This document shows, piece by piece, positions 10,877-16,174 of a stretch of 64,000 nt of DNA. Origin of the DNA: Thozetella sp. PMI_491 (Eukaryota; Ascomycota; Sordariomycetes; Chaetosphaeriales; Chaetosphaeriaceae); NCBI GenBank assembly GCA_021432635.1, contig MU270019.1, positions 806,001-870,000 on the forward strand. The letters run 5' to 3'. Under the pieces are notes generated by a model that was not told the DNA's origin, did not search any database, and saw only the letters and a program-made list of their open reading frames with translations. Position 1 is the first letter of the stretch. Each line of letters opens with the position of its first letter. A program made the position numbers and the translations under genes.

Positions 10877-13800
10877 CTACATACCAATATATGCCATAAG
10901 CAATCCACTCCCTCCTATCACATAACTCTGGCAAATGGTAATTTTCTCCAGCTTCAATTCTCCTGATTTGATCCGCACAGCTGCCTCGCCCTTCATCAGC
11001 CCCTCGACAAAACAGGATCCGACGACTTCATATCGATCTTCCTTAGGCCGCAGTACCATAGGCATATCGCAATTAGATAGTACAACAATCTTGTCACCCG
11101 GCATCGTATAAGAGGGAACAGCCCCTAGAAGTCCGTTTTTCGACCTCAGCAATCGGCGTCCAGTGAAGGCGCCAAAGACCTCGTGAGAAACTTCCATGAA
11201 CGCGGTGGTATCAGAGCAATACTCCTCGAGAGTTGCAAAGTAGCTCTGCAGCGGTTTCCCTCCAATGTCGAAATTCTCGTTCTGGTAGAAGCTGGAAAAG
11301 AAGAGATTGCGTAGCGGGCTAAGCTCGTAGAACCTCGCCCACCTCCGGTCATGCTCCTCGAATTTGTAATATTGGATATCCCGGAGCGGTCCGGGACTAA
11401 TCCTGCTGAGCTGGTCGCTGTCTACCCAAGGGATATCCAAGACAGACGGGGCATCGGAGAACTCGAAATGACTATTGTGAGTTAGGACGCGCGCAAGTAC
11501 CAGCCTCCAGTCAACATCAGCGGAGAGCGTTAAGCGTTCAGATCCAACATGAGCGGGCGAGATCAGAGTGCTATCAGTTTCCGGACTCCACATCCGGACA
11601 GCCCCCAGGGAATGGATAGAATCAACAACGACTCCTTGACAATACATCAAAAGATTATCCTTCGAAAACTGTAGATTAGTAGCCCTCAGACCCAAGTTCG
11701 CATCGTGACATCGATATCGCACGACGGTCATAGTGATATTGGTTGTATCTCGCCTGGCCTCCATATCAATAGCCCACGAAGGGAGGTCCCGCAGCAGCCA
11801 GGGGCGGTGTGGAATACGCGCCAAAATATCCAGATTTCCCTCAGCGGTGTAGCATGCTTTGGAAAACTGAGTGAAGGTAGAGCGAGCATTGAAGGAAGGG
11901 CTGTAGTCTGGTTGAATTTGTCCAACTATGGCATCGGGGAGCAGGGCCAGAACGCCGTATACTTTGTCTCGTGGGTCGGTGACCTTCGACGACTGGACAA
12001 GTCGGACAACATCGACAATATCTATCGAGGGTGTGCCATGTTTGTGGTAATTGCTGATTGGTCGCGTGCACATCAAGCGGAACATCAGTCTCCCAAGATT
12101 CTCCATAACTTGCATTGTGGCTTGGCCCCCATACTGGTTGTATCGCTCGGTAAAGATACATGCCATCGTTAGAAAACAGAGCCTGAGAATCTGGCCGCAG
12201 GTTAATGCGTGTTTGCCATGGTAGAACCATACTGAGGGAGCCAGTGCGACCTCCTGGACGACCCAGAGCCTTTCCCAGTACTGTAGCGAGGTGATGGCAG
12301 CCGTTGTAAGCCATAGTTCGTCGACAACGCCCATCCCTGCAATGTCTTCCCATTTCAGATCCACAACTTCGGTTTCTTTATTAGCAACCAGGAACTTCAT
12401 ACTGGCCAGGAGGCACGTGTCAAGTTCCAAACTAGGTTGACCAAGCCAGGCGTTGACGGAAAGGCATTCTGAGTAGATAAGAGCCATCTTCTTCACCTCA
12501 GCCTCGCGCTCTTCCCGGTTGGTTTGATCAATACAGATGGCGTCAATCCAGACATACAGTTTAAGCTGCCGAATTTCGAAAGTTTCTCGGAGGTGCAAGA
12601 GTGCTTGGTAGAGGTTCGATGAGACAGAGAAGTTGCAACCGTTTAGCACGATGTTGTGCTTGGTATCCGAGCTCCCCCAAACATAGCTCAGGGCGATGTA
12701 GTCGCCCCAGTTAAACCGAGAATCAATGGGATTGAGCTTTTCGAAGACGCTGTCATCGCCATTTTCCGGCTTTGACAAACCATCGTTAAAGAAGTCCTTC
12801 CACGGTGGCACGGCTGACGTCTCCTGAAGATCATTTACATGGCGCCGGAACATGCTCTTGAAGTGCCAGTTTATAAATCGAGATTTCTGAGAGGCTGGCA
12901 TACCCATGGCATGTAATTTGGATAGCAGTAGACGACAGTCATTGGTTATGTCATCCAAGTCAACCACCTCCAACTTACACCGCATTGGGTTGCCACCCCC
13001 CTCTTCGATCTTGTTAGTGATGTTGGGTGTATCCTCGATTGAGATGACCCTTATTTGCTTGCTATTGGGGTCCAACGGTGTATACTTGAAGGAAGCGTTA
13101 CTGGTCGAGTTGGCATCGTTATTGTCTGTGCGAGTCTCGCCACTGTTTGTGCTGACTTCATTGCTGTCTGCGCCAGACTGGCCAACTTCTCTCGTGTCTC
13201 CTGCTTCCTGATAGCTAGGCGAGCTATGCAACGGCTTCTTATTCTTTTCCGCCGGGTATATCAAACTCATTGGATTGGCCCGGTTCGTGTTGCTGGGCCG
13301 AGCATGCATCCTATTCTGCTTTGCACAGCAGACGCATGTGGCACTAGAATGTATCTGCTTAACCAGCGATGAGGCCCAAGTCCTTTCGCCTTCCGCCTCA
13401 TGCTCTTCCACGGCAAGCTTTTTTGAGGCAATAGGATCATATTCGTCGGCAAATTTGCGGATTTCAGCTAGTGCAGCCTTTGATACTGTGGGCACAGTCC
13501 TGAGGAATGCCTTCTCAAAGTGTGTGGCTTTCAAGACTCTTATGGTCTCAGATTCGTATCCCAGCGTATCGCATTCTAGTGCGGCTTGGACGCAAACAGT
13601 CATGATATCGGATCCTGAATAGCCCTTCGACCTGACGGCAAGAGAGCCAACATCGACATCCGCATCGAGGATCTCATCTCGCAGACAAATCTGAAAGATT
13701 TGCAGCCTCTCCTGGTTTGACGGGAGACCCATGTGGATAAGACTTGGCGCACGACGGTGAATTGCTTGATCGAGCTGTCGAGGATAGTTGGTGGACAAGA

Positions 13801-16174: not shown

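Follow-up and report, generated by a model that had tools for sequence, protein, structure and literature searches.

Gene and features at the locus

The window, i.e. the whole stretch of 64,000 nucleotides from Thozetella sp. PMI_491 that was analysed, carries on its reverse strand a gene encoding an AAA module and a HET domain in one open reading frame (16198..10877, -). From the ATG at 16174, the closest upstream in-frame stop being 47 codons away, this frame encodes a protein of 1765 amino acids and ends with a TAG codon at 10879-10877. The features of the gene, all on the (-) strand, are the following.

10877..16174 (-), AAA-HET gene, a single open frame of 1765 codons plus stop
15560..16042 (-), N-terminal module, first half, residues 45-205, with the family motif WFL (AlphaFold2 model, VIA match to p97)
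15143..15556 (-), insert modelled with low confidence that includes an acidic stretch, residues 207-344 (AlphaFold2 model; tandem repeats)
14315..15142 (-), N-terminal module, second half, residues 345-620 (AlphaFold2 model, VIA match to p97)
13430..14281 (-), active AAA module (D2), residues 632-915, with Walker A, pore loop 1, Walker B, sensor 1 and arginine fingers
14078..14101 (-), Walker A GPPGVGKT, residues 692-699 (motif)
13919..13936 (-), Walker B IIYIDE, residues 747-752 (motif)
13091..13429 (-), weakly conserved linker through which the frame stays open, residues 916-1028
10931..13090 (-), complete HET-protein part, residues 1029-1748, with the FKYTPLD start, the HET domain and the C-terminal GDKIVVL..MPMVLRP..FVEGLMKGE
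12251..12700 (-), HET domain, residues 1159-1308 (Pfam; conserved residues)
10880..10930 (-), C-terminal extension of 17 residues (1749-1765), past the end of the nearest relatives seen

The first-pass annotation, made from the letters alone, had placed intact Walker A and Walker B motifs and a complete HET domain in one stop-free frame. All three claims were borne out, both Pfam domains scoring over their cut-offs within the open frame, and its motif positions agree with ours to within three residues. It left out the putative D1-like N-terminal module and the conserved C-terminal part past the HET domain.

Around this gene, a cytochrome P450 frame (9838-10839, +; Pfam E 1.9e-29) is convergent with it, the P450 ORF ending at 10842, 34 bases from the AAA-HET stop. 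A fungal rhodopsin-domain frame (2690-3382, -) and a short-chain dehydrogenase frame (5402-6331, +) were also found, and 7 of the 10 window frames scanned gave no Pfam match at E 0.001. About 6 kb ahead of the window start there is a further HET domain (G000:C5:800148-800612; E 1.5e-33).

The active AAA module

The AAA family PF00004 matches residues 689-816 (E 1.2e-30, 107 bits against a cut-off of 21.2) and AAA_lid_3 matches residues 839-868 (E 1.7e-6, 27.9 bits against a cut-off of 27.2). The classic AAA set is entirely present: Walker A, Walker B (IIYIDEAD, residues 747-754, including D751 and E752), sensor 1 and the arginine fingers, the pore-loop aromatic being mostly kept. Because these elements are retained, the module has the sequence of a classic unfoldase-type motor and not of a STAND/NLR switch. 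A STAND/NLR identity was rejected, as Pfam gave no NACHT or NB-ARC match up to E 1; an nSTAND3 match scored 14 bits, well below its cut-off of 27.2. Pfam listed 18 families at E up to 1, and none of them is a C-terminal WD40, ANK or TPR repeat.

Two more specific families also scored below their cut-offs. The anti-phage protein IteA, with 96.6 bits where 510 are required, was rejected as a generic AAA match, and the p97/CDC48 family TIGR01243 of NCBIfam gave 138.2 bits against 802.65.

The N-terminal module

In the AlphaFold2 model, the N-terminal 620 residues resemble the p97 D1 AAA fold (VIA match to p97), and the motif scan found no P-loop pattern GxxxxGK[ST] in this module. Local profile comparison gave no support for D1 homology: the best probability, against tandem AAA, was 1.9%, followed by 0.6% against its own D2, 0.5% against FtsH and 0.1% against the HET negative control, while D2 against FtsH, used as positive control, gave 100%. 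The N-terminal part thus models as a p97 D1-like module devoid of a P-loop, an assignment that the profile comparison does not confirm. Within the insert, a 21-base tandem repeat (15230-15373, 6.9 copies) is in frame and encodes an acidic DDAESKS-like stretch. A long acidic stretch also occurs in the N-terminal part of one paralogue (C75, see below).

The HET part

The HET domain starts 343 residues past the AAA match. The HET family PF06985 matches over its full profile length (positions 1-146 of 146; E 3.1e-27, 96.2 bits against a cut-off of 22.5), and the motifs SYVWG (1163-1167) and WIDAICIDQ (1209-1217) are intact. In an alignment mixing fused and HET-only proteins, the conserved HET residues are found in 49 or 50 of 50 rows, E1308 itself being present in 49. 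From the order of the motifs, and not from an alignment, E1308 may tentatively be read as the equivalent of the catalytic TIR glutamate. A search of the PDB with the HET profile returned nothing at E up to 10.

The nearest HET-only relatives share 37-43% identity over 85-98% of the HET part, these values being those of the best rows, some of which (e.g. P0149) are fragments of fused genes. Five of the eight fused relatives compared end with S[LF]C; the window protein has ITIC at this place and continues for 17 residues.

One gene or two

An AAA gene and a HET gene lying side by side could seem fused through an open frame between them. The linker is where such a boundary would fall: its sequence is weakly conserved across five relatives, it contains an in-frame ATG, and FKYTPLD at residue 1029 is a typical start of HET proteins. 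Its GC content by codon position (0.49/0.51/0.58) is unlike that of the longer parts of the gene (0.52-0.65/0.36-0.46/0.52-0.61), and composition therefore lends no support for coding. The coding status of the linker follows instead from its open frame and from the same join being shared by relatives. No strict 5' splice site (GT[AG][ATC]G) was found in residues 906-1035, although this pattern is narrow and could miss an unusual intron. Against two adjacent genes, both domains occur in one protein in 38 of the 53 database matches, including a Podospora cluster of 22 member sequences, and within one frame in the C75 paralogue. We therefore consider two separate genes very improbable. We take the AAA-HET fusion to be genuine; it recurs, and it differs from STAND-HET proteins.

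Recurrence across fungi

With the whole protein as query, 53 matches were obtained from 8000 scored candidates, and according to precomputed domains 38 of them contain both PF00004 and PF06985, so that the pairing is above chance. As the candidates were gathered by shared words and limited in number, such counts are lower bounds from which absence cannot be deduced. The other 15 matches comprise one protein with HET and an AAA lid (P0032), seven with HET but without AAA and seven with AAA but without HET. Motif patterns found AAA and HET in 33 of the best 39 matches, AAA always preceding HET, and a Pfam rescan of six relatives gave both domains in the same order. Two shorter AAA-HET proteins (P0163 and P0182) were added by the HET search. 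One relative (P0024) has an Amidase domain behind the HET part (E 8.1e-66), possibly through a fused gene model.

The pairing is kept across four fungal classes, its named hosts including members of Gyalolechia (Lecanoromycetes), Lophiotrema (Dothideomycetes), Hyaloscypha (Leotiomycetes) and Podospora (Sordariomycetes). Judging from these sequences, AAA-HET proteins form a recurrent Pezizomycotina family and are not the product of one odd gene. Members are named in databases as AAA-domain-containing, AAA+ ATPase or hypothetical proteins, and no description of the architecture was found in the open-access full texts searched, which did not include preprints.

When the AAA part alone served as query, the matches among 7999 scored candidates were distant AFG2, NVL and FtsH proteins, with 0 fused relatives, although many fused relatives fall within the length range of this search. 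These candidates were evidently taken up by generic AAA words, and this search is therefore uninformative on HET-less relatives.

Paralogues in the same genome

In the genome of Thozetella sp. PMI_491 (72 Mb, 157 contigs), HET matches above the cut-off number at least 150, with 150 of 440 candidates scored. When this genome was compared with the protein, 26 of 336 candidates being scored, the AAA part matched at nine loci besides the window gene. The six best of these nine (C75, C58, C8, C2, C7 and C15) were examined, C128, C29 and C63 being left out. C75 encodes AAA and HET within a single open frame of 1176 residues, its N-terminal part lying upstream in a different frame. At C58, AAA pieces are followed by a HET frame in another phase, about 90 bases past the end of the AAA frame; this locus is perhaps a single spliced gene and a possible third AAA-HET. 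No HET match was found at C8, C2, C7 and C15 in the stretches fetched. The N-terminal motif WF[LY] is common to C75, C58, C8 and C2; C8 and C2 belong to the same AAA subfamily, and C7 is more distant. A contig end lies some 13 kb from the AAA part of C75 (L040, G000:C75) and some 17 kb from that of C2 (L041, G000:C2), so that both are perhaps near chromosome ends.

Phylogeny and number of fusions

In the AAA tree (51 of 52 rows), the HET-less C8 groups with the fused P0023 and P0025 (SH-aLRT 96), and the HET-less C2 shares a seven-member group with C75 and other fused proteins (SH-aLRT 96). The HET-domain tree was built from 120 of 122 rows, after removal of two short ones. In it, the window protein falls in a 46-row clade of 34 fused and 12 labelled HET-only proteins (SH-aLRT 100); one of these 12, P0149, begins within the AAA end and is the fused-gene fragment mentioned above. 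A second clade contains five fused rows (P0034, P0038, P0039, P0040 and C75; SH-aLRT 96), and P0037, P0035 and C58 are placed elsewhere, on weak or long branches. In the tree of the longer HET-protein alignment (63 rows picked from 122), one clade unites 16 main fused rows (SH-aLRT 100), and the five rows of the second clade again stand apart (99), within a group that includes HET-only proteins (97). The second clade is thus placed nearer to HET-only proteins than the main one.

The AU tests are split. With the HET domain, forcing all 27 fused rows into one clade gave p 0.033, for a group picked after the tree had been viewed; 42 of the 120 rows were omitted (the 12 labelled HET-only, four long, one duplicate and 25 near-duplicates). 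With the longer alignment, placing the main and second fused groups together was not rejected (p 0.114). We favour repeated HET gain, or HET exchange on a constant AAA chassis, as what these sequences suggest.

The HET-less relatives also bear on a more ordinary function. The protein could be a protein-quality-control or organelle AAA, its HET part serving just for binding or as a scaffold and playing no part in death or defence. HET-less genes C8, C2 and C7 of the same genome, and especially the position of C8 within the fused group of the AAA tree, are in line with such a role, and an incompatibility function has been demonstrated for a small fraction of HET genes according to the available text of PMC10890737. 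However, the near-complete conservation of the HET residues, E1308 included, is what a working effector predicts. We regard this role as rather unlikely.

A possible mechanism

The explanation that we put first, tentatively and with somewhat less than even confidence, is a single-chain, ATP-driven regulated-cell-death protein that combines a p97/Vps4-type ring with a TIR-like HET effector. The AAA ring, made of the P-loop-less D1-like module and the active D2, would bind a target protein. D2, with its intact finger and pore-loop residues, would assemble the ring and pull on this target. Either ring assembly or target threading would then gather the C-terminal HET domains and switch them on. 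TIR domains are generally switched on by being brought together, and the putatively TIR-like HET domains would be activated likewise. NAD or a related nucleotide would be the most likely target of the activated HET domain, after which the cell would die or be sealed off. We infer the hexamer, the threading, the enzyme activity of HET, the cell death and the role in immunity or allorecognition from this architecture, allorecognition being one possibility among others. In Podospora anserina, incompatibility genes represent 4 of 132 HET genes in the text available from PMC10890737.

The strongest rival reverses this effect. The motor would then restrain or recycle HET, the AAA ring separating HET domains or dismantling HET assemblies and thus limiting or resetting the death response. 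An intact unfoldase-type D2 with a pore loop fits disassembly as well as activation, and p97, Vps4, spastin and related AAA proteins, to which D2 bears a structural likeness, are disassembly machines. Yet a restrainer would presumably not need a complete HET protein of its own, and we know of no partner HET gene that would be its target. We regard a restraining motor as rather unlikely too.

Relation to known systems

As far as the available text of the sources goes, HET has been described on NLRs, alone, and with a lectin fold. The death effector role of HET is exemplified there by the HET-E, HET-D and HET-R NLRs of Podospora anserina (HET-NACHT-WD40). Like them, AAA-HET joins an NTPase and HET in one chain. 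They have a STAND/NACHT switch, a WD40 sensor and an N-terminal HET, whereas AAA-HET has a classic AAA motor, a C-terminal HET and no repeats found. The initial suggestion of an architecture different from HET-E/HET-D thus stands, with a classic AAA module in one frame with HET, but it needs one change: HET is C-terminal to the ATPase, and the protein is therefore not an NLR with a replaced sensor. In a Sordariales NLR survey starting from NACHT, NB-ARC and AAA, HET-like domains appear as N-terminal NLR domains in the text available (PMC12258605).

From residue 1029 on, AAA-HET is a whole HET protein of the HET-6-type/HET-only kind; unlike AAA-HET, these proteins have no motor. D2 is alike in sequence and fold to p97/CDC48, AFG2, Vps4, spastin and FIGNL1, for which HET is not recorded, and AAA-HET differs in its N-terminal module without a P-loop. 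The product Bh of the het-B locus of Podospora anserina is, like AAA-HET, a non-NLR HET protein with a second domain; according to the text available, its HET is N-terminal and its partner a lectin fold, whereas in AAA-HET HET is C-terminal and the partner is AAA (PMC10890737).

A broader proposal, which we hold with less confidence than the cell-death mechanism itself, is that a p97-like unfoldase may replace the STAND switch in a kind of fungal immune protein absent from the literature searched: the target would be read by pulling, the HET tails would fire once a target is engaged, and this AAA chassis would have captured HET several separate times.

HET genes are among the largest gene families in filamentous fungi, and their killing mechanism is given as unknown in the available portions of PMC10197012 and PMC10890737. 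As loss-of-function mutations of such a motor are well understood, its link to HET in AAA-HET offers a direct route to how HET is switched on. Podospora pseudopauciseta has an AAA-HET relative, and its genus includes a standard incompatibility model. If the motor is the sensor, fungi would possess an immune switch beyond the NLR plan.
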